Part shown: positions 5,512-21,293 of the stretch, one piece after another
Numbering within the stretch: position 1 is the stretch's first letter
Layout of the letters: every line of letters starts with the position of its first letter
Origin: Tatumella sp. JGM91
Lineage (GTDB): Bacteria; Pseudomonadota; Gammaproteobacteria; Enterobacterales; Enterobacteriaceae
Assembly: GCF_018257575.1 (NCBI RefSeq)
Contig: NZ_JAERJP010000001.1
Span: 62,001 to 126,000, forward strand
Direction: 5' to 3'
DNA length: 64,000 nucleotides
The notes under the pieces: model-generated
What the model was told of the DNA's origin: nothing
Databases searched by the model: none
The model's input: the letters and a program-made list of their open reading frames with translations, nothing else
Position numbers and translations under genes: made by a program

Positions 5512-5562
5512 GTGGGGGTATATTTGGGGGTATTATCAGGTTCAATGGAAAAGATACCCCCA
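5512..5562. repeat. Left-end G5 repeats (putative integrase arm sites)
   Basis: Two direct gtgggggta/ttgggggta motifs at 5512-5532 and one inverted copy (tacccccaa, 5554-5562) precede the integrase start. A matching pair of ttgggggt motifs lies at 21201-21219 just inside the right attachment site. Their symmetric location near both ends suggests arm-type integrase or excisionase sites; the function is inferred. Confidence 0.55.
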
Positions 5563-5564
5563 AA

Positions 5565-6761: not shown

Positions 6762-6861
6762 TTTGCGTTAAGTTAATTTGCGCCCGATTGGGCTTTGGCG
6801 TGCTATTATGGAACGATATTAATTCTAAGATTAGCCCATAACTTTAAATGGATTTTAATAA

Positions 6862-7551
6862 ATGAAAGAAAGCACTGCTTTTGATTATTTTGCATCACCT
6901 GTGCCCATTAGAAGCAAGGGCGGGTCTTCAACGCTACAGGTAAAGTTAAGGCAAGAAATATCGCCATTACTTAGCGATAATGACGTGATTAATTTGTTCA
7001 AATCAAATTATGCTGAGCAAGAGCTGAAATTAAAAAACCCCGCCAATATCAGCTTTTATAATTCTGTAACTATGAATGACATACTCTCATATAACACTGG
7101 TCATATACACAGTGATTGTTTGATCAGGCTTCATAACTTCTCAGTCAGAATTTGTGATTACCTGAATGTCTCTAAAAATGTATTCCAAAGAGCCGCTATA
7201 TTGGCAACCTTGTCATTTATTAAGGGCGAACTAGATGTTGCTCGGGCTATTCTTGATACATTCAACACTGCCAATATCGGGGCTGTAGTCATTTCTGATA
7301 AATGTTCAGCAAACGGAAGGCAAGGGGGAAGAAACCAACATCCGAGAACAGGCGAGGCTATCGAGCTAGCGGAAAAGAGGCATAAAGAAGTTCCATATGA
7401 GAGCAATGAACAAATAGCAATTTATGTTGTAGGTAAGCTTAAAGAGGCAAACCCGAAAGAGGTTCCGTCACTTTCTACCGTGAAAAGGGCGATAAATACA
7501 AGCCAAAGCATATCTAAATCTAGGTTAAAAGCCTCTAAAAGTCGGTCATAA
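6862..7551 (+). CDS. Uncharacterised satellite protein, possibly DNA-binding
   Basis: This 229-residue protein starts MKESTAFDYFASPVPIRSKG, and I do not recognise its family. There is no signal peptide or TM segment. The C-terminal third is basic and includes a segment resembling a helix-turn-helix (SNEQIAIYVVGKLKEANPKE followed by SLSTVKRAI), so a regulator acting on DNA is possible. The gene is AT-richer than the integrase and lies between int and alpA, where satellite regulators often sit. Its stop codon falls inside the first copy of a 20-bp direct repeat. Confidence 0.65.
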   Translation: MKESTAFDYFASPVPIRSKGGSSTLQVKLRQEISPLLSDNDVINLFKSNYAEQELKLKNPANISFYNSVTMNDILSYNTGHIHSDCLIRLHNFSVRICDYLNVSKNVFQRAAILATLSFIKGELDVARAILDTFNTANIGAVVISDKCSANGRQGGRNQHPRTGEAIELAEKRHKEVPYESNEQIAIYVVGKLKEANPKEVPSLSTVKRAINTSQSISKSRLKASKSRS

Positions 7552-7605
7552 GCCGCTTTTGAATGCCATAAGCCGGTTATGACTTTCATAAGCCGCTTTT
7601 GAATG
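7546..7605 (+). repeat. Pair of 20-bp direct repeats upstream of alpA
   Basis: The sequence tcataagccgcttttgaatg occurs at 7546-7565 and again at 7586-7605, exactly 40 bp apart. A partial palindromic copy (cataagccggttatg, about 7567-7581) lies between them. The block lies in the intergenic region before alpA and could be a regulator-binding cluster. Confidence 0.7.
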
Positions 7606-7685
7606 TATTTATTTGATAAATAAAAAAATAGTATTTCACTTGTTCCGTAATCATCCACTGATACACAAAATGAACAGGTGAATCC

Positions 7686-7895
7686 ATGCAAGACAAGAAA
7701 GAACGTTTAATCGACTTTAAAGAAGCTCTTAACCGCACTCGTACCAAAAAATCATGGGCTTACGAGCTTATCAAGCAGAACCGCTTCCCAAAGCCTATCA
7801 AAATTGGCGCACGTTCTATTGCTTTTGTGGAAAGTGAAATCGATGCGTGGATTAACGAGCGTATCGCAGAACGTGATGGCGTGGGGGCTAACTAA
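7686..7895 (+). CDS. AlpA-family transcriptional regulator
   Basis: AlpA-type proteins are small MerR-like winged-helix DNA binders that activate or repress integrase/excision functions in P4-like elements. This 69-residue protein has the helix-turn-helix part (RTKKSWAYELIKQNRFPKPI, about residues 19-38) and the usual end, where IGARSIAFVESEIDAWI is the family hallmark. The stop overlaps the ATG of the next gene (TAATG). A direct-repeat block upstream may be its control region or target. Confidence 0.88.
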   Translation: MQDKKERLIDFKEALNRTRTKKSWAYELIKQNRFPKPIKIGARSIAFVESEIDAWINERIAERDGVGAN

Positions 7896-8362
7896 TGGCG
7901 AAAAAAAACCACCCGGCACAGGTGGCTGATTCAGATATTCGCGGGATTGATTCTACACCCGCACCACTGAATATCAAGCCGCCATATAAAGCCGAAACAT
8001 TCGGCCTCTATATGCTGACACATCCTAACGGGATCACCGCACTTAATACTAACGCCCGCACGTTTGCTGATTTTGATAAGAACGGCACTGGTAAGCAGTT
8101 TTATACCACCTGCCTACACACTGATGTTGCCAAACTCCGTAATCAATATGGCGTTGATGTGTCCGGCGAGCCGGTTAAATACGTTTCCCGCCACGGGTAC
8201 AGAACCACTTTCACCAGCTACCGAATTGCTGACCGTAAGGCCGCAGCCCGTGCCGTTGTGTTGGTCAATCGCTGGCGTACAGATCGCGGTGAAAGTCACT
8301 TGCCGCCAGAATATGCACAGCAGCTTATTAACCAGTTCCCGGACACCAACCCTACCGAATAA
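7895..8362 (+). CDS. Conserved hypothetical satellite protein
   Basis: This 155-residue protein is coupled to alpA by a one-base overlap. It starts MAKKNHPAQVADSDIRGIDS. The C-terminal half (SRHGYRTTFTSYRIADRKAA, then VVLVNRWRTDRGE) is basic and helical. No signal peptide or membrane segment is present. Proteins of this kind are found next to alpA in P4-like elements as far as I recall, but their role is not known to me. Its operon position suggests an early regulatory or replication function. Confidence 0.75.
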   Translation: MAKKNHPAQVADSDIRGIDSTPAPLNIKPPYKAETFGLYMLTHPNGITALNTNARTFADFDKNGTGKQFYTTCLHTDVAKLRNQYGVDVSGEPVKYVSRHGYRTTFTSYRIADRKAAARAVVLVNRWRTDRGESHLPPEYAQQLINQFPDTNPTE

Positions 8363-8375
8363 CGGAGCCTGACAG

Positions 8376-8963
8376 ATGAAAATCGAAAAAAGCGGATTCA
8401 GTTCCGAGGCCGCCCCTCAGCCTGAGCATGGATTTAGCAATATTAACTGTGCAAGTGAAGACCATATTTCAGTTATCAGGTTTGAAGGTAAAACCATCCG
8501 TATTGTGAATATCAGCGGTGAGCCGTGGTTTATTGCTAAAGATATTTGTGACGCGCTGGAAATTGCAGATCACTTAGTTTCCTTACGCCGCCTGGATGAC
8601 GATGAAAAGGGGGGGTATTTAATACCTACCCCTGGCGGCAACCAACACATGCGGACAGTTCAGGAGTCAGGTTTCTACAAACTGATTTCTCGCAGCCGCA
8701 AAGCAACGATTCCCGGCACATTCGCCCACGGGTTCACCAACTGGGTATTTCGTGAAGTGATCCCTTCTATCCGCAAGACTGGCTCCTATGGTGTCCCGTT
8801 CGCGTTCCTGAATGACCACAGCAAACGCCAGGTAGCCTATGACAAAAAGGCCAGTAAACGCGGTAAAGATCTGCAAGCCTGCAAAGGTGAGAAAGCCCGC
8901 TTAATCGCCGAAGAAGCTGAATTATGGCGCAAGTACCAGCCGCAATTGCCGGAGGTTCACTGA
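8376..8963 (+). CDS. Bro-N domain antirepressor-like protein
   Basis: This 195-residue protein has a Bro-N domain at about residues 35-130. The start of the domain (VNISGEPWFIAKDICDALEI) and the later ESGFYKLISRSRK segment are diagnostic. FAHGFTNWVFREVIPSIRKTG marks its end. Bro-N proteins in phages act as antirepressors or DNA-binding regulators. The C-terminal region is short, lysine/arginine-rich and helical and is not a recognisable Ant or KilA-C domain. The gene lies in the alpA operon, with 13 bp to the previous gene and a TGATG overlap with the next. Confidence 0.87.
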   Translation: MKIEKSGFSSEAAPQPEHGFSNINCASEDHISVIRFEGKTIRIVNISGEPWFIAKDICDALEIADHLVSLRRLDDDEKGGYLIPTPGGNQHMRTVQESGFYKLISRSRKATIPGTFAHGFTNWVFREVIPSIRKTGSYGVPFAFLNDHSKRQVAYDKKASKRGKDLQACKGEKARLIAEEAELWRKYQPQLPEVH

Positions 8964-9145
8964 TGCCCCCACAGAAGCCAAAGCGCCGCTTTAAAAGCCC
9001 GCACGGGCGCACCGTCACAGTGCTGGGAATGAGTGCCGGCTGTGTCGTGTTTATGCGCGATGACTACCCGCACCCATGCCAGAAGCCACTGGAGAAGTTC
9101 AAAGCTGAGTATGTGGAGGTGACAGATGATCGCCGCCCAGAGTAA
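8963..9145 (+). CDS. DUF4222-like small protein
   Basis: This 60-residue basic protein reads MPPQKPKRRFKSPHGRTVTV followed by VVFMRDDYPHPCQKPLEKF, which resembles the DUF4222 family of small phage/satellite proteins of unknown role. The frame is open 13 codons upstream, but the ATG at 8963 has a GGAGG ribosome-binding site and overlaps the Bro-N stop (TGATG), so it is chosen. The assignment to DUF4222 is from memory of the family pattern. Confidence 0.75.
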   Translation: MPPQKPKRRFKSPHGRTVTVLGMSAGCVVFMRDDYPHPCQKPLEKFKAEYVEVTDDRRPE

Positions 9146-9151
9146 TGCCCC

Positions 9152-9264
9152 TTCACTGGCTGGCCTGTTAGTAAATGTTAGTGTCGAAAACCTAACAAAA
9201 CCTCACATTTCACTGGCTGGATTCTTAACAAATCTTAACCTTGAGCACTTAGTAAAACTTAGTG
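9152..9264 (+). repeat. Repeat cluster before the RHH/Icd switch
   Basis: The 12-mer ttcactggctgg occurs at 9152-9163 and 9209-9220. A 16-base unit of form TTAGTAAANNTTAGTG occurs at 9168-9183 and 9249-9264, with a looser copy (TTAACAAATCTTAACC) at 9225-9240. The region lies between the DUF4222-like gene and the 3' end of the reverse-strand RHH gene. It has no convincing coding content of its own, although a plus-strand frame is open through it. Confidence 0.6.
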
Positions 9265-9365
9265 TTCATCAGACAAATATTTGCCCGATGTTCAGCCAAC
9301 TGACATACCTCAAATCACAGGGATGTAAAGCCGACCTTAAAACTCCCGATCACCAAAAGCTGAAC

Positions 9366-9401
9366 GAAAAAAAGGACAGCACTGCGAATGCCATCCTTTC
9401 G
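9366..9401 (-). terminator. Intrinsic terminator of the RHH gene
   Basis: On the minus strand an imperfect hairpin (AAAGGA with TCCTTT and an inner GCA/TGC stem) is followed by seven T residues. It sits just beyond the stop codon at 9419. Its polarity supports a real gene on the reverse strand here. Confidence 0.7.
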
Positions 9402-9418
9402 ACTACAGCCAATGAGTA

Positions 9419-9610
9419 TCAGCCCTTTGGTTCAATGCCTAACCGCTCAAGTTCTTTGCGACCAAGCGTTTTCAGCCAGTTCCCGAGACTCATGTTCTCT
9501 GCCGTTGCTGCTGCCTCAAATTGTGCCTTGAGTTCAGGTGATAAACGTACATTGAACATCGGTGAGCGGCCAGCTCCTTTAGGGACTTTATCCCTTTCGA
9601 TGATTGACAT
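9419..9610 (-). CDS. Ribbon-helix-helix (Arc/HicB-like) DNA-binding protein
   Basis: This 63-residue protein reads MSIIERDKVPKGAGRSPMFN and then VRLSPELKAQFEAAATAENM, ending in a short basic tail. This is a one-domain ribbon-helix-helix repressor pattern (the beta strand FNVRLS and two helices). The open frame is longer, but only this part has a protein-like pattern. The start at 9610 sits next to an 11-bp inverted repeat, and an oriented terminator follows the stop. It is probably an autoregulated repressor controlling the divergent Icd-like gene. Confidence 0.8.
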   Translation of the reverse strand: MSIIERDKVPKGAGRSPMFNVRLSPELKAQFEAAATAENMSLGNWLKTLGRKELERLGIEPKG

Positions 9611-9653
9611 GTATAGACCTATTGCAATATTATCGATCCCATTAGGTCTATAC
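9611..9653. promoter_or_regulatory. 11-bp perfect inverted repeat, putative RHH operator
   Basis: gtatagaccta (9611-9621) and taggtctatac (9643-9653) are perfect inverted repeats with a 21-bp spacer. The left arm touches the RHH start codon, and the block is in the divergent region before the Icd-like gene. This is the expected layout of a repressor operator; binding is inferred. Confidence 0.7.
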
Positions 9654-9755
9654 CTTATCACGGTAAGGCGTAATAAAGAAACGCCCACGAACGGTATTAC
9701 CAGTACCGAACGAGGGCTAACAACCACCGATAGCGAAAGTATCGAGGAAGCTGTA

Positions 9756-9986
9756 ATGCAGAATACCACACACCCGCAAGGGCGGCATTCACTCACCCAA
9801 AATTCAGGCAATGAACCGGCGTCATTCGTCTGGATTATCGCCGCAGTTCGCCGTGACTGCCCGACAGTTAAGGCCACAATCCACCATATCGCCGCTGCTA
9901 CAGAGTGTGAAGCCCGCCGGATGCTGGCAAAAGATCACGTTTGCTTCTTTGCCGGCCGTATTCGCCAGGGGGTTAGCAATGCGTAG
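9756..9986 (+). CDS. Icd-like (host cell division inhibitor) / Ash-family protein
   Basis: The 76-residue protein ends with FVWIIAAVRRDCPTVKATIH, then ECEARRMLAKDHVCFFAGRI. This matches the Icd-like/Ash pattern of P4-like satellites, whose founding member blocks host division. I chose ATG 9756 because it is preceded by a GAGGAAG ribosome-binding site and follows the divergent operator region. The frame stays open back to 9126, crossing the RHH gene, so a longer product cannot be excluded. The host effect here is inferred from the family only. Confidence 0.72.
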   Translation: MQNTTHPQGRHSLTQNSGNEPASFVWIIAAVRRDCPTVKATIHHIAAATECEARRMLAKDHVCFFAGRIRQGVSNA

Positions 9987-10158
9987 TCACTTTGATGTGC
10001 GCGGCTATGCCGTCAATAAGCGCGGACTGACCGTGGGGATTACCTACCAAATCGTTTCCTCTGACGTTAAACACGCTACGGCCCACGCAATGAGCCGGGC
10101 GCAGCAGGAAGGATTTACTCATATCCGCATTAACTTCACGCGGGAGATCGCGAAATGA
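9979..10158 (+). CDS. Small hypothetical protein
   Basis: This 59-residue protein starts MRSHFDVRGYAVNKRGLTVG and is mixed alpha/beta with a basic end. I do not recognise the family. The chosen ATG overlaps the end of the Icd-like gene, and its stop overlaps the next start (ATGATG), so it sits in a tightly packed operon leading to the primase. A longer frame starts upstream at 9811 but lies entirely inside the Icd-like gene in another frame, so the shorter form is preferred. Confidence 0.65.
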   Translation: MRSHFDVRGYAVNKRGLTVGITYQIVSSDVKHATAHAMSRAQQEGFTHIRINFTREIAK

Positions 10159-10415
10159 TGGAGCAGCACCCCGAATACAGCAATGCGATTGCCATGCTAT
10201 CCAGAGAGGAAGCGTATTCCGAAAGTTTTACGACTAATGAACGAATCTCTGAACGGCTTGAGAGGTTCCGTACCGGTTTAGTTCATATCATCACCGAAAT
10301 TTTACCGGAGCATGATACTCAAAAAGAATATCACTGGCTTTCAGCACTGCTTCATTTACTGGAAATGACACAAATTGATTTAGCCAAAGAAATCCGCCGG
10401 GAGTGTGAACAGTGA
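10155..10415 (+). CDS. Small helical hypothetical protein
   Basis: This 86-residue acidic, mostly helical protein (MMEQHPEYSNAIAMLSREEA, with LHLLEMTQIDLAKEIRRECE at the end) has no known family to me and no membrane segment. It overlaps the preceding gene by four bases and the next by four (GTGA), so it is translationally coupled within the replication operon. The role is unknown. Confidence 0.68.
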   Translation: MMEQHPEYSNAIAMLSREEAYSESFTTNERISERLERFRTGLVHIITEILPEHDTQKEYHWLSALLHLLEMTQIDLAKEIRRECEQ

Positions 10416-11014
10416 GTAAATTGGAAGTGATAGAAGCAACCGCAGATGGCGTTATTTTCATGACTCGCCGCGCCGATGGTAGCCACCAGCACCAGAAGTT
10501 GATCGGCTATAAGGCCGCTATCAGGACGCTGGATGATGGCGCTTATGACGATGATCTGCCAAATGGCCTACGCCTGGTAGCGACAGTATTTGAGGCTGAG
10601 GTAATGGGCTATTTCACCCCGACTGGCGGGCAACAGGTGATGCTGTGGCGTTGGATTGTGGCGGCCCTGTTTATCATCGAGCAGCTGGAACAGAACGGCG
10701 CTGGCGAAGTTGAACTAGAGGACGGCACGACACAGACGTTTGCTCGGTACTTTGGCAAACACGGCGGCATATCTGTTTACCCTGTCACTGAGCGCGTGGC
10801 CCTGGCTAATAACATTGAATCACTGGCCTGTGAGTTACACGCCCACGAAGGCTCGGAGCAAAAGGCAGTCCTCATATACCAGCAAATGCTGACTACAGAC
10901 AGCGGAGCCTATGCCCTATCTGCCTGGGGCCGTGAGTGTATGGCAATACTTCACGACAGCTTTATTGAGCAGATCAACACCGAGGGGCTACCTGCTGCCC
11001 CGGTATGGCACTAA
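10412..11014 (+). CDS. Hypothetical protein upstream of the primase
   Basis: This 200-residue soluble protein has a GTG start (GTGAGTAAA) overlapping the stop of the previous gene. Its sequence (MSKLEVIEATADGVIFMTRR, later ARYFGKHGGISVYPVTERVA) shows no motif I can name. Its location, immediately before the primase/helicase gene, in the same operon and ending 12 bp before it, suggests an accessory replication or regulatory role. That is inference from position only. Confidence 0.72.
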   Translation: MSKLEVIEATADGVIFMTRRADGSHQHQKLIGYKAAIRTLDDGAYDDDLPNGLRLVATVFEAEVMGYFTPTGGQQVMLWRWIVAALFIIEQLEQNGAGEVELEDGTTQTFARYFGKHGGISVYPVTERVALANNIESLACELHAHEGSEQKAVLIYQQMLTTDSGAYALSAWGRECMAILHDSFIEQINTEGLPAAPVWH

Positions 11015-11026
11015 GGAGGGATAACG

Positions 11027-13783
11027 ATGCGTAACATTGACCTTATCCGGGAAGTGACTACCGAAGCAGCGAATAACTGGCCTTACATTATGCAGAGCCT
11101 CAATATCGCCGTGCCGGATAACCCGCGAAAACATGCGCCTTGCCCCAACTGCGGGGGTAATGACCGATTCCGGTTCGATGACAACGGGCGCGGCAGCTTT
11201 ATCTGTAACCAGTGCGGTGCGGGTGATGGCCTCGACCTGATCCGCAAAGTTCACCAGTGCGACACCACAGAGGCGGCAAAGCTGGTGGCTGATGTGCTGG
11301 GTATTGATTACCGGACAGCCGAAACAGACCAAAAATCAGCCGACCAGAGACGTGACCAACTGGAGCAGCGGCGCCAAAGCCAGGCTGAGGAATACCGGCA
11401 GCGCCAGGATGAAGCAGAGGCAGAACGGCGGGCACAATTCGATGCCAGGTATCAGCAATTGGAGGCGGCAGCAACGGACGGCGAGAGCCAGTATCTGATC
11501 GCTAAGTATCTGGATGGAGTGATCACCCGATGCCTGCCTGATGGCTCAATCCTCCTGCCATTAACGGACGCTATCGGGAATATCACCGCAGCACAGACTA
11601 TCTCACAGATAGGCAGTAAAAAGCTGGTGGCCGGCTCCGCGAAGAAAGGCGCATATCACACCATAAACGCACCACAGCAGCCACAGGCCGTTATCCTTGC
11701 CGAAGGTTACGCCACAGCGTTGAGCGTCTCCCTGATGCGCCCAGAAGCGCTGGCAGTGGCAGCCATTGACGCAGGCAACCTGTTACCGGTGGCTAAGGTA
11801 ATGCGCGGGAAATACCCACAGGCACAAATCATCATTGCCGCCGATAACGACCACCAGCAGGACGGGAGCGCGAACACGGGGATCACCGCCGCAGAGTCTG
11901 CCGCCATTGCCGTGGCTGGCCTTGTCACAAGCCCACCGACTGACCACAAGGCTGACTGGGACGACTACCGGCAGCAATACGGGCTAGAGGCGTCTACAGC
12001 AGCATTTAACGAAGGATTGTACCAACCACAGGGGGAAGCGATGAACGCAACGCTACAGGTGACTCACGGCGGCAAAGAGAGCCAGCAAAACGACCCGCTT
12101 AAACCGCAGGTTAAAAGCCGGAAGGATGGCATTTATTGGATTGAGCCAAAGACTGACAAAGATACCGGCGAGATTATCAGCAAGGAAAGCTGGCTATCCT
12201 CCCCGTTAGATGTGATCGGCACTGGCCGCGATGATAAAGACCAGTACCTGATATTACGCTGGGTTCCCTATGGTGAAACGTCACCGGTAACAGCGCCGCT
12301 ACCACTGGCTGATGTGGGGGAGCGTGAAGGATGGCGCACGTTAAAAGCAGGTGGCGTGAATATCACTACCAAAAGCGGGTTACGGGCAATTCTGGCCGAT
12401 TGGCTGCAAATGAGCGGCAACCGCGAAATATGGCGGGTGAGTCATGCGACTGGCTGGCAGTGTGGGGCCTATATCATGCCTGATGGCGACATCATTGGAT
12501 CACCAGATCGCCCCGTATTATTCAGCGGCCGCAGTAGCGCCGCATCCGGCTACAAAGTGACAGGCACAGCCTATAGCTGGCGGGGTTCCGTGGCCAGACT
12601 TGCTGAGGGTAACTATTCCATGATGACCGGGATCGCCGCAGCACTGGCGGCACCACTTATCGGGCTATCCGGGGCTGACGGGTTCGGCATCCATTTTTAC
12701 CAGCAATCCAGCGCCGGTAAGACAACAACGGCAAACGCCGCCGCGAGTTTATACGGTGATCCTGATTTACTGAAACTGACCTGGTACGGCACCGCGCTGG
12801 GGTTAGCCAATGAAGCTGCCGCGCATAATGACGGATTAATGCCGCTGGATGAAGTCGGACAAGGAGCCGACCCGGTGAGCGTCTCACAGTCTGCCTATGC
12901 CCTGTTTAACGGCGTGGGGAAACTGCAAGGTGCGAAGGAAGGAGGAAACCGGGATCTGAAACGCTGGCGCACCGTGGCGATCAGTACCGGTGAGATGGAC
13001 ATGGAAACCTTCATCGCTACCAGTGGCAGAAAGACCAAAGCCGGGCAGCTTGTGCGCCTGTTGAATATCCCGCTGACTAAGGCTGTTAACTTTCACGGCA
13101 ACGGTAACGGTAAGCACCACGCTGACGCCCTGAAGGATGCCTGGCAGAGTAACCACGGAGCGGCGGGCCGGGCCTGGATAAAATGGCTTGCAGATAATCA
13201 GGGGGAAGCCGTTGAAATCGTCCGGGAGTGTGAAGAACGCTGGCGTGGCATAATCCCAGCTGACTACGGCGAACAGGTTCACAGGGTAGCGTCCCGATTC
13301 GCCATTCTGGAAGCCGCACTACTGGCAGGCCGGGTGATCACCGGATGGAACGCGCAGATATGCCGTGATGCGATACAGCACAGCTATAACGCCTGGGTGA
13401 AGGAATTCGGGACGGGTAATAAAGAACACCAGCAGATAATCCAGCAGACGGAGGCTTTTCTTAATGCTTACGGACTGAGCCGGTTCGCTCCGCTGCCGTA
13501 TGAGCCGCGAGACTTGCCGATCAACAACCTGGCAGGCTACCGGCAGAACGGAAGCCACGAAAGCGACCCGGTAGTGTTTTACACGTTCCCGGCTACGTTT
13601 GAAAAGGAGATCGCCACTGGTTTTAACCCGAAACTGTTTGCTGATGTGCTGAAGCAAAGCGGAATGCTGACACCGCCAGCCAGTGGCCGAGGTTATCAGC
13701 GGAAATCACCGAGGATTGAGGGGCGGCAGATTAACGTATTTGTCCTGAGCTTCATGCCGGAGGAAAACGACCAGCCAGAGTAA
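11027..13783 (+). CDS. P4 alpha-type primase/helicase (zinc finger, Toprim, DUF927)
   Basis: This is the replication protein of the element, 918 residues. The N-terminal P4-type primase zinc finger uses Cys39, Cys42, Cys60 and Cys63. A Q/R/E-rich linker (about 105-150) precedes a Toprim domain with the acidic pair at ILAEGYATA (about 223-231) and AADND (about 270-274). A DUF927/P-loop helicase domain follows, with QSSAGKTTTANAA near residue 560 and PLDEVGQG as the Walker B region near 605. A strong AAGGAGG ribosome-binding site precedes ATG 11027. It probably primes and unwinds at the iteron region just downstream. Confidence 0.92.
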   Translation: MRNIDLIREVTTEAANNWPYIMQSLNIAVPDNPRKHAPCPNCGGNDRFRFDDNGRGSFICNQCGAGDGLDLIRKVHQCDTTEAAKLVADVLGIDYRTAETDQKSADQRRDQLEQRRQSQAEEYRQRQDEAEAERRAQFDARYQQLEAAATDGESQYLIAKYLDGVITRCLPDGSILLPLTDAIGNITAAQTISQIGSKKLVAGSAKKGAYHTINAPQQPQAVILAEGYATALSVSLMRPEALAVAAIDAGNLLPVAKVMRGKYPQAQIIIAADNDHQQDGSANTGITAAESAAIAVAGLVTSPPTDHKADWDDYRQQYGLEASTAAFNEGLYQPQGEAMNATLQVTHGGKESQQNDPLKPQVKSRKDGIYWIEPKTDKDTGEIISKESWLSSPLDVIGTGRDDKDQYLILRWVPYGETSPVTAPLPLADVGEREGWRTLKAGGVNITTKSGLRAILADWLQMSGNREIWRVSHATGWQCGAYIMPDGDIIGSPDRPVLFSGRSSAASGYKVTGTAYSWRGSVARLAEGNYSMMTGIAAALAAPLIGLSGADGFGIHFYQQSSAGKTTTANAAASLYGDPDLLKLTWYGTALGLANEAAAHNDGLMPLDEVGQGADPVSVSQSAYALFNGVGKLQGAKEGGNRDLKRWRTVAISTGEMDMETFIATSGRKTKAGQLVRLLNIPLTKAVNFHGNGNGKHHADALKDAWQSNHGAAGRAWIKWLADNQGEAVEIVRECEERWRGIIPADYGEQVHRVASRFAILEAALLAGRVITGWNAQICRDAIQHSYNAWVKEFGTGNKEHQQIIQQTEAFLNAYGLSRFAPLPYEPRDLPINNLAGYRQNGSHESDPVVFYTFPATFEKEIATGFNPKLFADVLKQSGMLTPPASGRGYQRKSPRIEGRQINVFVLSFMPEENDQPE

Positions 13784-13813
13784 ATACTTTTTTTCACATA
13801 CGAGGTTTTAGTG

Positions 13814-14070
13814 TTGGTTCAGTTGGTTCAGTCGGTTCAATTTGTAAAGTGTATTGATTTATAAGGATTTTAAATCATATTTTGAACCAACACTGAACCA
13901 ACAATTGGCTATTTTGAACCAACACAGACGACAGGATGATTTTTCGTTGGCAGGTACTGAACCAACAATCACCCCCACTGAACCAACACAAAATTAAAAA
14001 TGTTGGTTCACTAAAACCCAGTACTGGCGCGGCCTGCAAGCCCGTGAACCAACTGAACCAACTGAACCAA
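13814..14070. repeat. Iteron array 1 (TTGGTTCA), putative replication origin
   Basis: The 330-bp gene-free stretch between primase and ssb holds twelve copies of TTGGTTCA or its complement, eleven of them exact. Forward copies start at 13814, 13823, 13832 (one mismatch) and 14003. Inverted copies start at 13883, 13894, 13915, 13958, 13979, 14045, 14054 and 14063. The first three and last three form tight 9-bp-spaced triplets in opposite orientation, a 27-bp inverted repeat with one mismatch around a 204-bp AT-rich centre. P4 alpha binds iterons at its ori and crr, so an origin is the natural reading. Confidence 0.8.
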
Positions 14071-14113
14071 CATACTTTCAGTTGTTTATAGAAAAAATTG
14101 AGGTGAGTAAATT

Positions 14114-14545
14114 ATGACCGCACAGATTTCAGCGTACGGGCGGCTGGTGGCAGATCCACAGACCCGCACCACGGCAAACAGTAAAAGCATGGCAATGGCA
14201 CGACTGGCGGTGACGCTACCCTGCCATACCGCACAGAACAACGAAGCTACCTACTGGCTGGGCGTAGTCGCTTTTGGCGCTCAGGCTGACACACTGGCGA
14301 AACACCATAAGGGTGACATGATAAGCATTGCTGGGAATATGCAGCTTAACCAGTGGTCAGGACAGGATTGCGTACAGAAGGAACAGCCACAGGTTATCGC
14401 TGACAGCATTATCAGTGCCAGAACGTCACGACCAGGCAGCAGAAAGACCACCAGCAATCCGCAGCAGTCAGGCCAACCACACAGCGCCGTGCCAGGATGG
14501 GAACACTATCAGCAACCACCTTTTGATGATGAAGAAAGGTTTTAA
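14114..14545 (+). CDS. ssb: Single-stranded DNA-binding protein
   Basis: This 143-residue SSB homologue has an OB-fold of about 100 residues (MTAQISAYGRLVADPQTRTT, WLGVVAFGAQADTLAKHHKG). A polar Q/S/P-rich linker follows, and the acidic C-terminal tip ends PFDDEERF, the protein-interaction tail of SSBs. It is a mobile-element paralogue rather than the chromosomal ssb. It follows the iteron array and probably supports element replication with the primase/helicase. Confidence 0.9.
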   Translation: MTAQISAYGRLVADPQTRTTANSKSMAMARLAVTLPCHTAQNNEATYWLGVVAFGAQADTLAKHHKGDMISIAGNMQLNQWSGQDCVQKEQPQVIADSIISARTSRPGSRKTTSNPQQSGQPHSAVPGWEHYQQPPFDDEERF

Positions 14546-14704
14546 TCATGAGCAAGCAGAAAATCGCCATCCTAAGCCTTTAAAGTGAACTGACCTCACT
14601 AGCGAGTAGAACATTGTGATATAAACGTCAGGTACTGCTTTTGTATAATCAGACGTTGTATAAGGTGAGCATTCTGGGTCTGACCAAACGATGGTCGCTA
14701 CTCT

Positions 14705-14735
14705 CCCCGTGGTTTTTGATATACCCACCACGGGG
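14705..14735 (+). terminator. Hairpin after ssb
   Basis: A perfect 9-bp stem (ccccgtggt with accacgggg, 13-nt loop) lies between ssb and the two-TM cargo gene. The following sequence is only moderately T-rich (gccttgagttcttt), so this may be a weak terminator or an mRNA 3' structure. Confidence 0.5.
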
Positions 14736-14762
14736 GCCTTGAGTTCTTTATAATACAAGAAA

Positions 14763-15470
14763 ATGGAAATAACCATGTTTGAACAATTACCGCCAAGTAT
14801 CTACATCGCTATGGGTGCGCTCGCAGCAGCATTAGTTACAGGATTATTTTCATTCCTAAACATGATTGTGACAAAGGAAAACAAAGTATCTGAGTTTAGG
14901 CAGGAATGGATAAATACATTAAGAGAGGAAATTTCAATTTTTACGGCATCGGCACAAAGGATGTCTTATGACTTGAGTGAGTGTAGAGGGAAAAATATTG
15001 ATAAAGCAGTAGAAACCCTAAATGAAAGTAGGGAGAAGACGGTTCAGTCCTTAACGAAGCTCACACTCATGTTAAATCATGAAGATATAAAAAAAGAAGG
15101 AACCCAAGAATTTGAGTTAATGCGAGTAATAAAAGACGCAAGAGCAGTAAAGGTAGCGAGAGGTTTTAGGGTTAGGGCGAAAGATAAGGGCTGTTGGGCT
15201 CAGGATGAGGAAATAATCAGAGCTTCAGACGCAATAAGAGATGCTGCTGGACCATTACTTAAAGATAACTGGGAAATCGTTAAGAAGGGAGAGAGAGTCT
15301 ATAGGTATACACGGAATGCAGCGCTCGTATTCCTCGTTGTCACATTCATAGCTCTTGCTTGCTTCTCATATAATTCACTAGCACATACAAACAAGAATGT
15401 TCAGGCAGAGTCCCAACATCAACTTATAACCCCTCCAGCGAATGTAACGATCACCATTAAAACCGATTAA
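14763..15470 (+). CDS. Two-TM hypothetical cargo protein
   Basis: This 235-residue protein starts MEITMFEQLPPSIYIAMGAL; an alternative ATG four codons in is equally possible. A membrane segment covers residues 13-33 and a second (AALVFLVVTFIALACF) about 183-200. Between them lies a charged, helical cytoplasmic region (FRQEWINTLREEISIFTASA onwards), and there is a short outer tail. No family is recognised. Base use is AT-rich and unlike the replication genes, which marks it as cargo acquired separately. A membrane-acting defence or exclusion role is possible but not shown. Confidence 0.75.
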   Translation: MEITMFEQLPPSIYIAMGALAAALVTGLFSFLNMIVTKENKVSEFRQEWINTLREEISIFTASAQRMSYDLSECRGKNIDKAVETLNESREKTVQSLTKLTLMLNHEDIKKEGTQEFELMRVIKDARAVKVARGFRVRAKDKGCWAQDEEIIRASDAIRDAAGPLLKDNWEIVKKGERVYRYTRNAALVFLVVTFIALACFSYNSLAHTNKNVQAESQHQLITPPANVTITIKTD

Positions 15471-15793
15471 TGAAGGCGTAGCCTAACTCGATACAAGAGA
15501 AAAATTTAACATCAGCCCCTCTTATGCGTACTGCTTAAACGGCCTCATAGCGATTTTGAGGCCAGTACCACACTCCGCCATACCTTGCCCTGCGAAAACG
15601 TCCAGACTCGATTTCATAGCTTCATCGACCACAGTAAACAGAAGCCGGTTATTTCCGTTTTTTTGTGCCTGACGATAAATAACGTTGATCTGACCGATCA
15701 CATAATCGTTTCATGAATCGGTACAAATATATTAACTGTTGCAAATATTGAAACTATAATAGCTGTATAAATAGCCAATGTGGACAAATAACC
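15471..15793. other. Intergenic stretch between cargo and small ORF
   Basis: About 320 bp without a firm gene. A reverse frame 15522-15701 (GTG start, 59 codons, ending IAMRPFKQYA) is open and protein-like (GNNRLLFTVVDEAMKSSLDV), but it lacks a ribosome-binding site and may be the remnant of a larger gene. The right part is AT-rich and probably contains the promoter for the 58-residue gene that follows. Confidence 0.5.
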
Positions 15794-15970
15794 ATGAGTA
15801 CAGCAAGCCTGAAGCCGGTACTACTCAGTCGAGAACAAATCGCCGTACTTCGAAAAATCCAGGAACAGGAGCGCAGCAAATCCCCGCTGAACATCGCGCC
15901 AACAATCCACGTTATTGCCCGTCAGTTGATGGATAACGCGCTGAAGCAGTTACAGGTGAATAATGCCTGA
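15794..15970 (+). CDS. Small hypothetical phage/satellite protein (58 aa)
   Basis: ATG 15794 begins a 58-codon frame reading MSTASLKPVLLSREQIAVLR and ending ARQLMDNALKQLQVNNA. It has a compositional pattern (amphipathic helices, S-REQ start) seen in small phage proteins, but I cannot name a family. Base use is GC-richer than the neighbouring cargo and similar to the replication genes. It is followed by about 180 bp before the RHH gene. Coding status is likely but not certain. Confidence 0.55.
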   Translation: MSTASLKPVLLSREQIAVLRKIQEQERSKSPLNIAPTIHVIARQLMDNALKQLQVNNA

Positions 15971-16101
15971 TAGCAGGAAAGAGTAGAGAAGGAACTTAAC
16001 CCAATGACAGCCTGATGATTTAGCCACCAGTACGCGCGCGAGGCAGCAGAGGACAAAAAAGTCCTCTGGTACAAAATCAGAGGGTTATCCGCATAGGCTA
16101 G

Positions 16102-16117
16102 AGGCAGGATCCTGCCT
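16102..16117. promoter_or_regulatory. 16-bp perfect palindrome upstream of RHH gene
   Basis: AGGCAGGATCCTGCCT is a perfect palindrome that ends 33 bp before the start of the next gene, an RHH protein. This is the usual place for an autoregulatory operator. The function is inferred. Confidence 0.6.
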
Positions 16118-16150
16118 ATGATGATTTACAGAGCCCACAAAAGGGGAACC

Positions 16151-16366
16151 ATGTCAGCCAGTGAGAAGAAGAACACGAACCGGTATTTTAATGGTGTAGA
16201 AACTACACGTTTAATCGTGACGGTAGAGAGTTCGCTGGTGGCGCAGGTTGATGACCTGATAGGCACTCACCGTTATGGTGATATCTCTCACCCATGCCGC
16301 CGGAACCGTGCTGAGTTCGTCAGGCAAGCCATAGCCGAGAAGCTGGTGCGGGATAGTAACCAGTAA
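16151..16366 (+). CDS. Ribbon-helix-helix (CopG-like) regulator
   Basis: The 71-residue protein begins MSASEKKNTNRYFNGVETTR and continues RLIVTVESSLVAQVDDLIGT, then NRAEFVRQAIAEKL, the beta-strand/helix/helix pattern of CopG/MetJ-type DNA binders. ATG 16151 has an AAGGGGA ribosome-binding site and is preferred over an ATG eleven codons upstream that would overlap the palindrome. A role in regulation or in repeat binding on the element is probable. The gene precedes the HGGxSTG-type gene by 44 bp. Confidence 0.78.
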   Translation: MSASEKKNTNRYFNGVETTRLIVTVESSLVAQVDDLIGTHRYGDISHPCRRNRAEFVRQAIAEKLVRDSNQ

Positions 16367-16410
16367 CCACCAAACGTAACCACACAGTAGTTACCACAGA
16401 GGCCGAATAG

Positions 16411-16761
16411 ATGGACAGCAGAGCCGAGAAGGTTAAAAGACTACAGCAGCACTACCAGCGCAGAGATGATGCCCTTAAAAAATGGGCCGCCAATGGATAC
16501 AGATACCACGATACACCGGCACATGATCCAATGCCTGACGACCTGGCAGACTTACGGTGCGAAGCAAAGACCAGGGCAGGCACACCCTGTAAGCGTAAAG
16601 ACATATACCAGAATGGACGGTGCAAGTTTCACGGGGGCCTAAGTAGTGGCGCCAAGACAGCAGAGGGTAAAGCGCGGCAGTTAGCTGGGTATCGCCACTG
16701 GCAGGAAAAACAGGGAATGCGCAAGGATAAAATTGCGCAGAAAAATGCGCACAACGAATAG
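16411..16761 (+). CDS. HGGxSTG-type domain protein
   Basis: This 116-residue basic protein has a central cysteine/histidine segment, CEAKTRAGTPCKRKDIYQNG, then RCKFHGGLSSGAKTAEGKAR. It is a variant of the HGGxSTG motif found in many small phage and satellite proteins, with Cys and His residues that could bind zinc. The family's job is unclear. TGCGCA motifs begin inside the last codons and continue past the stop, leading to the second iteron array. Confidence 0.82.
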   Translation: MDSRAEKVKRLQQHYQRRDDALKKWAANGYRYHDTPAHDPMPDDLADLRCEAKTRAGTPCKRKDIYQNGRCKFHGGLSSGAKTAEGKARQLAGYRHWQEKQGMRKDKIAQKNAHNE

Positions 16762-16901
16762 TGAAATTGCGCAGAAATTGCCTTACCCCATGATGTATGG
16801 CGAGGCATGAAATTAAGCCTGTCATTAATTGTTAGTTTTCAGCAGGATAGCTGGTAGCTTCCTACCCCATGAATGGTTGATAAAAGTTGACGTTATCTAA
16901 C

Positions 16902-16986
16902 GGTTCGCAGCAAAGTTCGCATCTCTGGTTCGCAGTAGGTACGCAGTGTGGTACGCACCATAAGTACGCATTTTGAGTGCGTATCC
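16902..16986 (+). repeat. Iteron array 2 (GGTWCGCA)
   Basis: Six direct copies of (G/A)GT(T/A)CGCA start at 16902, 16914, 16927, 16938, 16950 and 16963, spaced 11-13 bp, about one helical turn. An inverted copy (tgcgtatcc) is at 16978-16986. Four TGCGCA motifs lie just to the left (16718, 16734, 16746, 16768). The array is in a gene-free stretch before the next small gene and is a second candidate replication or partition site, with a motif unlike array 1. Confidence 0.75.
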
Positions 16987-17048
16987 TGATAATTTTCGGG
17001 CACGTTAGAGGCCGCCAAAATCACAATAAACGGAACAAGGAGCGACCA

Positions 17049-17237
17049 ATGTTAGACCGTGAATCACTGGAAATGACCGTACTACAGATGGCCCGCATAC
17101 AGGGCGAAAAGCTGGACAGGCACACGCTGTACACCGTCAGGAATGAGATTAGAAACGCCCTGGCAGCAAAAGAACGATACCGCCGGACGCTGGAGGCACC
17201 ACCCTACCAGTGGAAGAAACCACGTCCGCCAAGGTAA
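17049..17237 (+). CDS. Small basic hypothetical protein
   Basis: This 62-residue basic protein starts MLDRESLEMTVLQMARIQGE and ends PPYQWKKPRPPR; I do not recognise it. ATG 17049 is preceded by AAGGAG, so it is chosen over a start 24 codons upstream that would run into the iteron array. It is helical in the middle with a proline/arginine-rich tail. It lies between iteron array 2 and the AT-rich cargo region. Confidence 0.65.
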   Translation: MLDRESLEMTVLQMARIQGEKLDRHTLYTVRNEIRNALAAKERYRRTLEAPPYQWKKPRPPR

Positions 17238-17472
17238 TCGAGACAGTTAAATCTGAAACCAACCCTGGAAAAATTTCTATACAAATATTTCTTAGGAGTA
17301 TTATTAAAAGCTAAGTAGACCTATGCACTCTTACACTTGCTATTGCAAATTAACAATAATTACAAATTTTGTGTATAAAAATATTTATCAAAATGATAAG
17401 TTAACGCGCCTTCAATGAAATGCTCAGAAAACATACAAAGATGTTTTTTTCAAAAGAATTTGAGATATTATT

Positions 17473-18272
17473 GTGACTACAACTATTTATGACGGTCTAA
17501 AACGTGTAGTGGGTAGTGATTCACGGTGGTCATGCTTTGCGCACGTAGCTAATGGTGAGTTTGAAACGTGCTCTTATCCCGAGGCTTCGCATATCGTTTA
17601 CGTAGACGATACTGGTTTCGGAAAATCCTGTTGCGCGAAGATGTAGTCCTGTGCTTAGCTGGAAATGGTGAGTTAATTGAGCAGTGGAAGACTTGGTGGC
17701 GAGCATCAACTCTAGTTAAAAACTATCCGCCGTTTACCAGTAATAATGGTGATAGTGTTGCTCTGTATGCTGTTGATTTATTAACCAATAAGTTGTGGCT
17801 TTTATCAAATCAGATTGATGCCACTTATGTGGATTCAAACAGCAAAGAGGTTCGGGCGCTCTTCTCTGGATCAGGTGGCGCGCTAGCATTTACAGCTTGG
17901 CGCAGAACACTTGACGTAAAACAATCTATAATTGAGGCTATATCTAACGATTTCTGTAGCGGTGGTAGTGTTAGATTCATAGACTATCATTCACAGCTTC
18001 AGGATTTAGAAGATTCATTCCACACCATAAAAGATGTTCAGAATGAGTTAGTCAATAGGGGGTATGTCATGGACATTAAAAGCTTAAAGAACCCGATTCC
18101 CATAACTGACCAAGCATTTGGTAAAATGCGAGATTCCCTAGCCGCTAATGTAGCAGCTATTGGAGCACCATTGGGTCACCAATCAGTAACATTATGGGAT
18201 GAACCAGCCTTAGCACGGTTGGATGCGTTAGTAGACATGATGGCTGAAAGGGAAAGCCATAAGCCATTTTAA
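17473..18272 (+). pseudogene. Proteasome/HslV-like Ntn hydrolase with a -1 frameshift
   Basis: The upstream frame starts at GTG 17473 and reads (M)TTTIYDGLKRVVGSDSRWS, giving an N-terminal Thr after Met removal and an Asp16 comparable to proteasome Asp17. It continues to VDDTGFGK and then hits a stop at 17644. One base back, the frame continues ILLREDVVLCLAGNGELIEQ and later RALFSGSGGALAFTAW, like the HslV/beta-subunit GSGG region, to a stop at 18270-18272. Joined, the protein has about 266 residues with an extra C-terminal helical part. The break falls at Lys51 (AAA) in the A-run 17622-17625. The cause may be a lost base, a sequencing error or slippage. No ATPase partner is adjacent. Confidence 0.75.
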
Positions 18273-18527
18273 CTGTCAAGGTACTTGTCAATCCTTTAAT
18301 CCTAATTTTAAAGGATTGATGAAATTTCGTTAATAATTATTTATTAATCTTCCCATTTTCCCTATACCCGTTACGAAAGTAAATCCAATAGATCTGGCAG
18401 TATTTTAACCTTAAGGTGTAAAATCCGCTCCTTATCTATGGGGGAGCCAGTAAAGGTAACAAATCCATAATGTGGCTCGGAACGAACATTATTACGATGC
18501 TTTATCGATACTGGTATGAAGTTAGTG

Positions 18528-18959
18528 TCACATTGAGGCTGCCTCCGCTATTTTCGTAGCGGTTCCTTTCTGTCGCTTCCATGCGCTGTAAATATCCTTA
18601 TTCCACGCCTTACCTGCCCTGGTCTGATAGCCGGCCTCATTAAGCCGTTCCGCGATAATGCGGCCGTTGTCGAATCCCTGCCTGATGGTATTTGCCACCA
18701 CTTGAAGCACTGCCGCCTCATTGTATTGCTGCGGGGGTATGCCCTGTTTACCACCAGCCAGCGCAGCCGCCGCCGTTTCCATGCGTTCAACCAGAGCCAA
18801 AAACCGGTGATCGGGATTACTTTCTGGCTGGCCCAACTTCTGACGTACAGCGTCAATCAGCCATGCTGTTTTGTCATTGCCGGACTCACTCACGGCAGAG
18901 GTGAAGGACTCAACTAGGTAAGCGGGGACGCGAAAGGTAACAGATAGGGATTTGCTCAT
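18528..18959 (-). CDS. RHH protein with recombinase-like C-terminal segment
   Basis: This 143-residue protein begins MSKSLSVTFRVPAYLVESFT, an RHH-like N-terminus. A linker follows, then a C-terminal segment (GRIIAERLNEAGYQTRAGKA, WNKDIYSAWKRQKG) that resembles the DNA-reading part of large serine recombinases. No catalytic domain is present. The ATG at 18959 has a GGTGA ribosome-binding site; a start five codons earlier has none. Two tandem gcgtaagaca repeats lie about 40 bp upstream. It is probably a DNA-binding regulator of the element. Confidence 0.75.
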   Translation of the reverse strand: MSKSLSVTFRVPAYLVESFTSAVSESGNDKTAWLIDAVRQKLGQPESNPDHRFLALVERMETAAAALAGGKQGIPPQQYNEAAVLQVVANTIRQGFDNGRIIAERLNEAGYQTRAGKAWNKDIYSAWKRQKGTATKIAEAASM

Positions 18960-18974
18960 TATGATCACCAACAT

Positions 18975-19289
18975 TAGGGAGATTGAGCAATATTTTACCA
19001 GCGTAAGACAGCGTAAGACAGCGGGCTATTTCCATAGCTTAGGGAGTCAATTTGGTTAGCGCACAAAGCTGGTGGCTTCGAAATGAAGGCACCTATCACA
19101 ACCAAGTGAATCCGCATATGGCTGCGTGTTTTCAGTCGGTATACGATAAATGGGTATTGGTGTAAATTGAACAGCCGTTCTCAGTGTCGAAAAGTCGCCT
19201 ACTGCTCCCAACATACAGGCAGCAATAGGCGAGAAGCATGCATACGGTGATAGCGAAGCCCTAAACGCGTCTGCGAGGATAGGTACTTG
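18975..19289. other. Intergenic region with tandem 10-mer repeats
   Basis: About 315 bp. Two exact tandem copies of gcgtaagaca (19001-19020) lie upstream of the reverse RHH gene, with a TAAAAT -10-like element on the minus strand between them and the gene, so they may be its operator. The rest shows nothing recognisable. Confidence 0.5.
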
Positions 19290-20795
19290 TTAAAATAGAG
19301 ACCCAGGTAAGCTAGTATGAACACTCTCTCCTGAGATACTTTCAAGGAATTGCTGTGGAAGAATCCTCTCAAATACATCCAGTACGGTACGCATGACACT
19401 TAAATGCTGGTCCCAATCACCCCCTTCCACACGCCTCCAAGCACTTGGCATGTACCTCACTAATATTGATAATGAATACAATATTGCAAGAGAGGTGACT
19501 CTATACTCGGACACGCCCCCCAATACTGGCAAGATTAATGTGGGGCTACTTAGATAAGGGCTGTGATGCATCAATAATGCATCGCGCCAAGACTTCAGCC
19601 CCTGATGATCGATGCGCGCCCGAAACACTTCACCATCGCGGGAAGTTTCAACCTTTGTTAACTCAGCAAGCGGCCAATCCTGCAAAGCAATTCGTGCCTC
19701 GGATATTTTATTAGATAGATCTTTAAGAAAAATGTAACTGGTTGAAGTATTAGTAGCCCTTTTTGCGTGTCGGGAGGTGACATCAATATACGGAATAAGC
19801 CAAGCAGGCTCATCGTCGTACACCTGCGTGAAGAGATCCCCCAATTCGGGAATCGCAGATAGTAAGGCAGACATGCCGGCAAATGACTGTAGAGGATACT
19901 TAACCGAATTATCTAAATCACCCACAGACCTTGCTTTAGCCTTAGGATAAAAACCAGTGTCATACCCCAGAAAACTAACCCAATTAGGGTAAAATCCAGT
20001 GGCTAGAACACCAACCTTCAGGTCTCCAAAATGACCAGTTACTGACGACAGGGTGAACAGCCCATGCCCCTGTTTTGTCATGCCTTCCAACTGGTCAAGA
20101 TCGGAGGGCCCATTAGGTGCGGCTAACATCTCCGCAAATGCAAGGCTCAAGGTTCCGTAGTACAAGCTAAGAACTCGCTTATTCAAGCTTTCGTACGGTG
20201 CCCCTTTGTAATAATCAGCAGCATTACCCAATGCAAACGCGATGCCGGACGCTTTAGAAAGGACATCTTCATCTGCTAGCTGAACTCCTTGTCTCTCGGC
20301 TCGCCTTAAAACCAGCTTTTTAGCTATCTCAGAGCTGGAGAACTGATTCAGACGAGCCCAAATGCCAGCCAAAGGATTTTCTGAAACAATTCTGATTACC
20401 GAGTCAGGAGAACTTGAGATTTTTTTACTCAGTTTAGGAGGTGCTAATTCAGTATTCCACTCGACCAGCAGAGGGAAAAAATCATCCAGTGAAGAAACGG
20501 GAGTTGTAACTCCTTTAGCGTAGTTTTCAACATGGTAAAGCTGCCCATTTGTGAAAATATGACTAACCCTTCTTTCCAACTGCTTATAATATCGATTATC
20601 TGTTGCTGACGTATACATTAGTGCGACTGAGTGATTTTTCGTACCTTTTGTGGCTTCTATCACTAAGTACTCGCCAGCTTCGGACTCTTCTACGACAGAA
20701 GCAATCCACCCATGAGACAAGAGGGGGCCTAGCATTTGTTGCTTGGCGGCATTATGCAAAATCCCCATACGTAACTCGATACCAACCCCTCCCAT
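19290..20795 (-). CDS. YaaC-like cargo protein with unknown N-terminal domain
   Basis: This is a 501-residue soluble protein. ATG 20795 is chosen because AGGAG lies seven bases upstream; a GTG two codons earlier is too close to it. Residues about 140-480 resemble the YaaC family (GIWARLNQFSSSEIAKKLVL, LYYGTLSLAFAEMLAA, GHGLFTL). The N-terminal 120 residues (LLSHGWIASVVEESEAGEYL, VIEATKGTKNHSVALMY) form a separate alpha/beta domain that could be nuclease-like. This is speculative. It is AT-richer than the replication genes and is alone on its strand next to the right att, a typical cargo slot. Confidence 0.75.
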   Translation of the reverse strand: MGGVGIELRMGILHNAAKQQMLGPLLSHGWIASVVEESEAGEYLVIEATKGTKNHSVALMYTSATDNRYYKQLERRVSHIFTNGQLYHVENYAKGVTTPVSSLDDFFPLLVEWNTELAPPKLSKKISSSPDSVIRIVSENPLAGIWARLNQFSSSEIAKKLVLRRAERQGVQLADEDVLSKASGIAFALGNAADYYKGAPYESLNKRVLSLYYGTLSLAFAEMLAAPNGPSDLDQLEGMTKQGHGLFTLSSVTGHFGDLKVGVLATGFYPNWVSFLGYDTGFYPKAKARSVGDLDNSVKYPLQSFAGMSALLSAIPELGDLFTQVYDDEPAWLIPYIDVTSRHAKRATNTSTSYIFLKDLSNKISEARIALQDWPLAELTKVETSRDGEVFRARIDHQGLKSWRDALLMHHSPYLSSPTLILPVLGGVSEYRVTSLAILYSLSILVRYMPSAWRRVEGGDWDQHLSVMRTVLDVFERILPQQFLESISGESVHTSLPGSLF

Positions 20796-21279
20796 TATCA
20801 CACTCCTTTTCGTTGAAAATATTCATCATGTGGATCATGGTCACATGAAATGCGGATAGTCAAAACTAACCAGGCACGTGACAACCAAAAGATAACCGGT
20901 GGGGACTTATCACCCTGAAATTAATGTAAAGAGTGTTTAGTGTTGTCCGCTTCTGGCACATAGCTGCCCCGCACAAATGTACGGCCTTACGTCTTCTTAT
21001 CTATACAGTAGCATTTTATGGTGATGACCGAATAAAATACAAAAGAGCAGCCATTCGCATTGCGGGGACCCCTTATTGTAGGTGACAAGTATCATACAAT
21101 AAGAGTGCTGATGATATGAGCATGGACAAGGAGTGAGCAGGGCGCTTAACCAGCCTACTATCGGTCAAATATCCACCACAGAAAAGGCACAGAAAATTAT
21201 TTGGGGGTACATTTGGGGGTGTTTGTGATTTATAAATAATAAAAAAAACAATTAATACATTGGTTTGGGTGTTTTTATT
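20796..21279. other. Right-end non-coding region of the element
   Basis: About 480 bp without a convincing gene, on the element side of the right attachment repeat. It holds the paired ttgggggt motifs at 21201-21219. The rest is unremarkable AT-rich sequence with only short shadow frames. Confidence 0.6.
21201..21219 (+). repeat. Right-end G5 repeats (putative integrase arm sites)
   Basis: ttgggggta at 21201-21209 and ttgggggt at 21212-21219 match the pair near the integrase start (5512-5532), including spacing of about one helical turn. They lie about 60 bp inside the right att core. Confidence 0.55.
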
Positions 21280-21293
21280 GAATCCTATAGGGC
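21280..21293 (+). repeat. attR core
   Basis: An exact copy of the 14-bp tRNA-Arg segment gaatcctatagggc marks the right boundary of the integrated element. Only this short part of the tRNA is duplicated. Confidence 0.85.

Follow-up and report, generated by a model that had tools for sequence, protein, structure and literature searches.

How a gene for a proteasome-like hydrolase comes to be carried by a satellite element, and to change its reading frame at the very codon of the catalytic lysine, is the question raised by positions 17473-18272 (forward strand) of the window, by which we mean the whole 64,000-nucleotide stretch of Tatumella sp. JGM91 DNA analysed here. Our results suggest that the locus is quite probably a loss-of-function copy of a known, RPC-type family whose unbroken members would act as ATPase-free threonine hydrolases. 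Two overlapping frames jointly encode one protein of 266 residues and 29.6 kDa that is broken by a single base (Table 1). The first frame opens with GTG at 17473, continues with ACT ACA ACT ATT (Thr-Thr-Thr-Ile) and runs up to the motif GFGK, where GGA (17620-17622) and AAA (17623-17625) are followed by TCC. The downstream frame stays open until its stop codon at 18270-18272; the first start codon listed for it is the GTG at 17568, which would give a product of 234 residues, and the residues just after this GTG are not family sequence.

Table 1. Coordinates of the proteasome-like gene and of the satellite around it (positions in the window).
Feature	Position	Strand	Basis
tRNA-Arg (tct), probable satellite attachment site	5323..5399	+	tRNA search
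Probable satellite extent	5380..21293		14 tRNA bases (5380-5393) repeated at 21280-21293
Tyrosine integrase of the satellite	5565..6761	+	profile searches
Bro-N antirepressor-like gene	8376..8963	+	profile searches
P4-alpha-type primase (zinc ribbon, Toprim, DUF927)	11027..13783	+	domain matches; 70% identity with the primase of the E. coli satellite
Single-strand DNA-binding protein (SSB)	14114..14545	+	profile match
Proteasome-like gene, N-terminal part, first frame	17473..17625	+	GTG start, Thr2 nucleophile position, DSRWS (Asp16), up to the Lys51 codon; motifs common to relatives
Four-A run with frame break at the Lys51 codon	17622..17625	+	equivalent of catalytic Lys33; Lys42 in the modelled relative
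In-frame TAG closing the first frame (57-aa product)	17644..17646	+	sequence
Remaining proteasome-like core and C-terminal extension, one base back	17625..18272	+	listed as ORF 17568-18272
Terminator-like stem 3' of the proteasome-like gene	18285..18322	+	consensus match only; 2 found in region against 0.9 expected
Gene adjoining the proteasome-like gene	18528..18974	-	62% identical to its counterpart in the E. coli satellite

The initial annotation had read this locus as a proteasome/HslV-like Ntn hydrolase gene with a frame break at the catalytic lysine codon. The sequence confirms the break, and the junction had been placed correctly, as judged from the family motif GFGK[IML] in close relatives. 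The joined reading also carries the Ntn-type similarity that had been expected of it: while profile searches with the 57-residue upstream part alone gave no convincing match, the downstream ORF alone matches phrog_1040 (peptidase HslV family) with 29.9 bits (E 7.8e-07), and the joined reading of 266 residues raises this to 40.2 bits (E 5.8e-10) with a match that extends to residue 1, which argues that the joining of the two frames is more than chance. In addition, the window protein keeps 27 of the 29 columns that are invariant in 30 unbroken relatives, namely every one of the 11 as far as the break and 16 of the 18 that follow it. The threonine, aspartate, lysine and oxyanion glycine are all present in the window copy but divided over two frames; because this separates the nucleophile end from the remaining active site, ordinary translation of this copy would give no active enzyme. 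We rejected the view that the locus holds two separate genes, since a single protein of the relatives aligns with both parts, and likewise an internal start for the downstream part, which would lose the nucleophile and is the start of no relative. Homologues that begin downstream of the break, which would have spoken against a broken gene, are absent among the extracted relatives, the two apparent cases reflecting the end of a contig (locus L124) and the place where a BLAST match starts (L077). The search for promoter-like sites on the forward strand upstream of the gene found none.

To which family does the broken protein belong? A survey from 2021 describes PPH, a proteasome homologue of phages and their hosts, and RPC, a class with a C-terminal extension (PMC8665760). 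In that survey, RPC proteins from proteobacterial carriers combine a PPH-like core with an extension that has no known structure, place a threonine directly after the initiator methionine, and follow the first sheet with a single helix in place of two (PMC8665760). The same survey reports that no AAA+ partner co-occurs with these homologues, and that a genomic context pointing to a specific function was not found for PPH or RPC (PMC8665760). The window protein and its relatives fit RPC, whose reference protein is WP_140207863, by these described features. A PPH-type core is indicated by the phrog_1040 match of the joined reading and by the fold predicted for a relative, in which the core ends near residue 172 of 256 and leaves an additional C-terminal part of about 85-90 residues. 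The triad described as Thr1/Asp17/Lys33, the oxyanion glycine and the lack of a propeptide are found in the relatives as T2, D16, K42 and G55. The second helix, H2, is missing: in the relative's model, as read from its list of elements, helix 57-68 stands alone between strands 49-56 and 87-92. The difference from RPC is that the window copy is broken.

Other members of the superfamily fit less well. PPH shares the MTT start, the aspartate, the lysine, the GSG and SGG motifs and the phage location, but has about 140 residues, lacks this kind of extension and is 15-23% identical to the window protein; in a tree the extended proteins stand apart from 11 PPH rows with support of 100/99, although the tool warns of long branches. 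HslV has the same superfamily and fold, and phrog_1040 also matches true HslV. However, PF00227 is unmatched by the joined reading and three relatives at the limits used, and the host genome has its ordinary HslV gene elsewhere (G000:C7:65436-65942), as a separate gene and the sole one in the search of its own genome. Moreover, none of the 12 other satellite ORFs scanned holds an HslU- or Clp-like ATPase. This agrees, for the ORFs scanned, with the earlier remark that the gene comes without an ATPase gene. Its description as solitary and unusual was too strong, given that the 2021 survey reports the lack of an AAA+ partner for these homologues in general and that other prophages and satellites carry the gene. 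As for the 20S proteasome beta subunits, BPH and Anbu, they share the fold of residues 1-172 of the model, yet their identities in the rows listed are 12-23% and the extra C-terminal part has no PDB match. Separately, two loci of Klebsiella phage KP13-16 (L068 and L071) encode a 304-residue PPH-type protein with a different C-terminal extension of its own and an overlapping gene annotated as a protein phosphatase. Literature at the level of abstracts offered no function for RPC, and one may still be in print. PPH and RPC are known, uncharacterised viral relatives of the proteasome, to which the window copy adds a further member.

The assignment of the fold draws on the unbroken relatives. An AlphaFold2 model built on an alignment of 30 of them, with the Serratia protein first, reached a pLDDT of 91.4 and a pTM of 0.88. 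Foldseek placed 20S proteasome beta subunits first (E 2e-5) and also listed one chain each of BPH (9.5e-4) and HslV (3e-3), with modest TM-scores, and VIA-align gave Z scores of up to 11.6 over about 145 residues for proteasome beta subunits and 11.2 for Anbu. The VIA-align rows often start at residue 2 of the model and residue 1 of the chain, which is the place of the catalytic threonine. As modelled, the unbroken relative has a proteasome beta fold, and the fold that the initial annotation proposed is supported by the same comparisons. All 30 relatives share T2, D16, K42 and G55 without exception; K42 corresponds to K51 of the window protein, whose codon lies at the break. Modelled alone, the C-terminal extension forms three helices with moderate confidence (pLDDT 77.6); a structure search with this part against the PDB gave no match below E 2.5. 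By sequence, a phmmer search of the PDB had no match better than E 0.25. A search of a viral structure library listed phage Ntn proteins, the best at E 3.5e-08, with proteins of 253-279 residues among the matches.

Together with the invariant residues, the model suggests how the unbroken proteins might work. Removal of the initiator methionine would leave Thr2 as the N-terminal nucleophile, Asp16 and Lys42 would activate it, and the glycine after the lysine would provide the oxyanion hole. We infer that the enzyme cuts a peptide or amide bond without a dedicated ATPase, and its helical C-terminal extension may confer specificity or assembly. Expression would come from the prophage or satellite in its dormant state, the likeliest benefit being the exclusion of other phages, with expression, substrate and benefit all presumed.

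Relatives of the gene are numerous. Scanning viral contigs with two hand-written DNA motifs, DDTGFxKI and GNGxLIxxWKxW, gave 54 loci, of which 38 match the joined reading by tblastn at E <= 1e-3; the best (E 9e-53, 38.6% identity) aligns over residues 1-264 and spans the break. In the genome collection 93 stretches matched the scan, two of them relatives, from Serratia bockelmannii and Pantoea septica, both unbroken. A further relative, first met by blastn, occurs in E. coli as a whole gene in 43 of 5,426 complete genomes, with at least 99% identity throughout, and is annotated as the unbroken hypothetical protein WP_000214207.1 in the four genomes that were opened. One of the 43, NZ_CP048647.1 (E. 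coli GW-AmxH19), is the sole genome with the RPC gene at two places. Unbroken relatives have 246-265 residues, and all 14 that were profiled match phrog_1040. The alignment of 30 relatives was drawn from 40 sequences (the 38 viral and two genome loci), leaving out four that are identical to others (L111, L109, L122 and L110), three that are broken (L119, L108 and L102), two cut by contig ends (L097 and L124), and L077, whose gene is unbroken but whose extracted piece lacks its start.

Searches that began from the window gene itself were less productive. Phage sequences searched by tblastn with either the joined protein or the downstream ORF returned no relatives, and neither did the plasmid tblastn searches (one gave five matches at E 5 to 9), blastn against E. 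coli, or pattern scans built on the single window protein. Comparison of the downstream ORF or the joined protein with sets of 60, 394, 369 and 198 genomes recovered only the gene's own genome, the remaining matches lying at about E 5e-4 or worse and being taken as chance, and the closer relative L091, used as a query against phages and plasmids, gave nothing. In the genomes of the order, phrog_1040 matched mostly ordinary-looking HslV, with two prophage PPH copies among the matches. Weak local matches in the searches concerned DUF6323, BnzA, LeoB and arcC.

What caused the break? We believe that a recent loss-of-function mutation at the lysine codon is the likeliest cause. The break looks recent, and the copy constrained until recently, because so many of the invariant columns are kept; an older decay is also conceivable, because the window protein lies on a long branch of the tree (1.85) and starts with GTG where the extracted relatives start with ATG. 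In all 38 viral-contig relatives the catalytic lysine and the next codon are in one frame. Since the DDTGFxKI scan presupposes an intact junction and could not detect similar breaks, whereas the GNGxLIxxWKxW motif lies after the junction, the fair set consists of the 24 loci found with the latter; each of these is a relative, and each is intact at the lysine. Of the 38, three are broken elsewhere, L108 by a stop and L119 and L102 by frameshifts. In L108 (1-180) this stop is an in-frame TAA three codons past the catalytic lysine, and L119 (3152-3921) is near-identical to the Serratia copy L126 (10001-10768), from which it differs by a few substitutions and one base in another A-run.

Instead of a mutation, the break could be a base-calling or assembly error in the four- to five-base A-run, with the gene whole in the living strain. 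A single-base change in a homopolymer within a draft assembly of 50 contigs would fit such an error, as would the pair L119 and L126, which likewise differs by one A-run base, be it through error or mutation; nevertheless, the A-run is short and, of the 25 host ORFs in the window that can be compared, 24 are whole across 20.3 kb, and we consider an error unlikely, though worth bearing in mind. The 25 derive from 106 ORFs of one same-genus genome, 32 of which had matches in the window and seven of which were passed over (<60% identity); among those matching at >=60% identity, 24 keep a single frame in alignments that cover >=90% of them and the other is cut off by the window edge, so that indel errors appear to be infrequent in this assembly. 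In a second relative genome 12 of 99 ORFs match the window: eight are whole, two were passed over and two are partial, one at the window edge and the other antisense within the integrase. The initial annotation had also offered ribosomal slippage with products of two lengths, one short and one long. In this reading a -1 slip on the lysine codon, programmed or useful at a low level, would produce a long protein besides the 57-residue one; in its favour, Lys-tRNA could re-pair with AAA one base back (GGA AAA), and the downstream part retains 16 of 18 invariant columns. As a rule, -1 frameshifting takes place on a slippery heptamer of the form X_XXY_YYZ. The site TTC GGA AAA TCC is no canonical heptamer, and the 80 nt after it fold no better than shuffled sequences (z -0.25; the fold is as good or better in 76 of 200 shuffles, pseudoknot-free folds being compared). 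Furthermore, the relatives are single-frame, and comparison of their A-runs at the junction revealed varying lengths and no conserved run. On these grounds slippage is very improbable, and a real mutation or an assembly error is far likelier. Phase variation in the A-run was rejected as well, four bases being few by general knowledge. The window copy is thus most likely a disabled (or mis-assembled) member of RPC, because unbroken relatives exist in many prophages and satellites.

The element that carries this copy shows P4-like traits in the part of its ORFs that was scanned, with an integrase, an alpha-type primase, an SSB and an antirepressor, and the earlier view that the gene is carried by a satellite finds support in the integrase beside tRNA-Arg and in the P4-type primase. 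Its right end is probable because, by our own arithmetic, about 0.01 such 14-base matches would be expected by chance. Weak matches within the satellite include an 'endolysin' PHROG (8e-5) and a small terminase (0.022). A 235-residue membrane-type ORF at 14763-15470 (+) has weak matches to LeoB/LeoBC defence (E 7e-4) and to that 'endolysin' PHROG (8e-5). Inside the probable right end, a YaaC-like gene at 19290-20801 (-) (PF14175, E 2.3e-17) may be a second cargo. Elsewhere in the window, at 61498-62043 (-), a unit of tRNA-Gln(ttg), tRNA-Leu(tag) and tRNA-Met is tandemly repeated with a period of 282 bases.

The E. coli gene for WP_000214207.1 likewise resides in a satellite, located between yicC and dinD. 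This element has the same order of backbone genes, with integrase, antirepressor, DUF927 primase and an RPC-type cargo, and both its primase (70%) and the gene beside RPC (62%) resemble those of the window. In contrast, its RPC protein is 33% identical to that of the window, is unbroken and groups with prophage copies, its integrase is 28% identical, and it occupies another integration site. Both satellites therefore seem to have acquired RPC separately, because the E. coli protein groups with the prophage copies and away from the window protein; since the window row lies on a long branch, this reading of the sequences is tentative. The E. coli element is also unusual for the P4 type in that two more genes lie next to its primase (L131:16695-20140), one for a 'phage DNA ejection protein' and another large one.

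Could the genomic position of the family point to a function? Lysogens often express the genes that lie behind a prophage repressor, rexAB of lambda being the model case. In 13 of 34 loci a CI/LexA-type repressor gene on the same strand ends <=900 bases upstream of RPC, which suggests expression from the dormant element. The 34, out of 44, are loci with an ORF reaching at least 700 bases upstream, and they include the window, three near-identical E. coli loci and several related prophages; because loci are related, the 13 are not independent. At L075 the repressor-like gene and RPC are separated by a predicted ORF on the opposite strand, and at L073 the repressor match is a fragment at the contig edge. 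Peptidase_S24 was found in the three upstream repressor-like genes scanned, two of which also have HTH_3. The other 21 of the 34, to which the window and the three loci from E. coli belong, have no repressor-like gene in that position; the E. coli satellites have a PerC-type regulator 170 bases before RPC, and the window has neither this regulator nor a repressor there. In four prophage loci (L088, L102, L105 and L115) a gene near RPC looks UmuC-like by eye.

Taken together, we favour the interpretation that RPC is an accessory gene of dormant elements that may encode an ATPase-free hydrolase with an N-terminal threonine and a defined target, possibly serving phage exclusion or control of the element. 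A fuller version, which must be called doubtful, holds that RPC would be a lysogeny gene behind a prophage repressor or a satellite cargo, made in the dormant state and cutting, without an ATPase, one defined target, be it a protein of an incoming phage, a repressor or a host factor, and that it is costly and therefore repeatedly broken, the window being a disabled carrier; broken copies amount to three of the 38 viral-contig relatives plus the window. Alternatively, the unbroken enzyme might be a switch protease that targets the CI/LexA-type repressor encoded nearby, or the SOS control of the host, instead of excluding phages. The repressor-like genes just upstream, with their Peptidase_S24 and HTH_3 domains, are in line with this idea, as is the fact that dinD adjoins the satellite with the RPC gene in E. 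coli, but most of the loci have no such repressor, including the window and the E. coli loci with their PerC-type regulator, which makes a role as a switch protease improbable. An accessory function of the dormant element, most likely directed against other phages, is thus the reading that we retain.

In its own right the break is of small importance, except as a hint that at least one host can do without the cargo or pays a cost for it. The locus is also less odd than first thought, and the part to retain is where the family lies in its genomes. The repressor-proximal position in 13 of 34 loci, together with the presence of RPC as cargo of two related satellites with a DUF927 primase, provides a testable lead on the function of RPC, and the natural unbroken copy in 43 complete E. 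coli genomes makes laboratory work straightforward.
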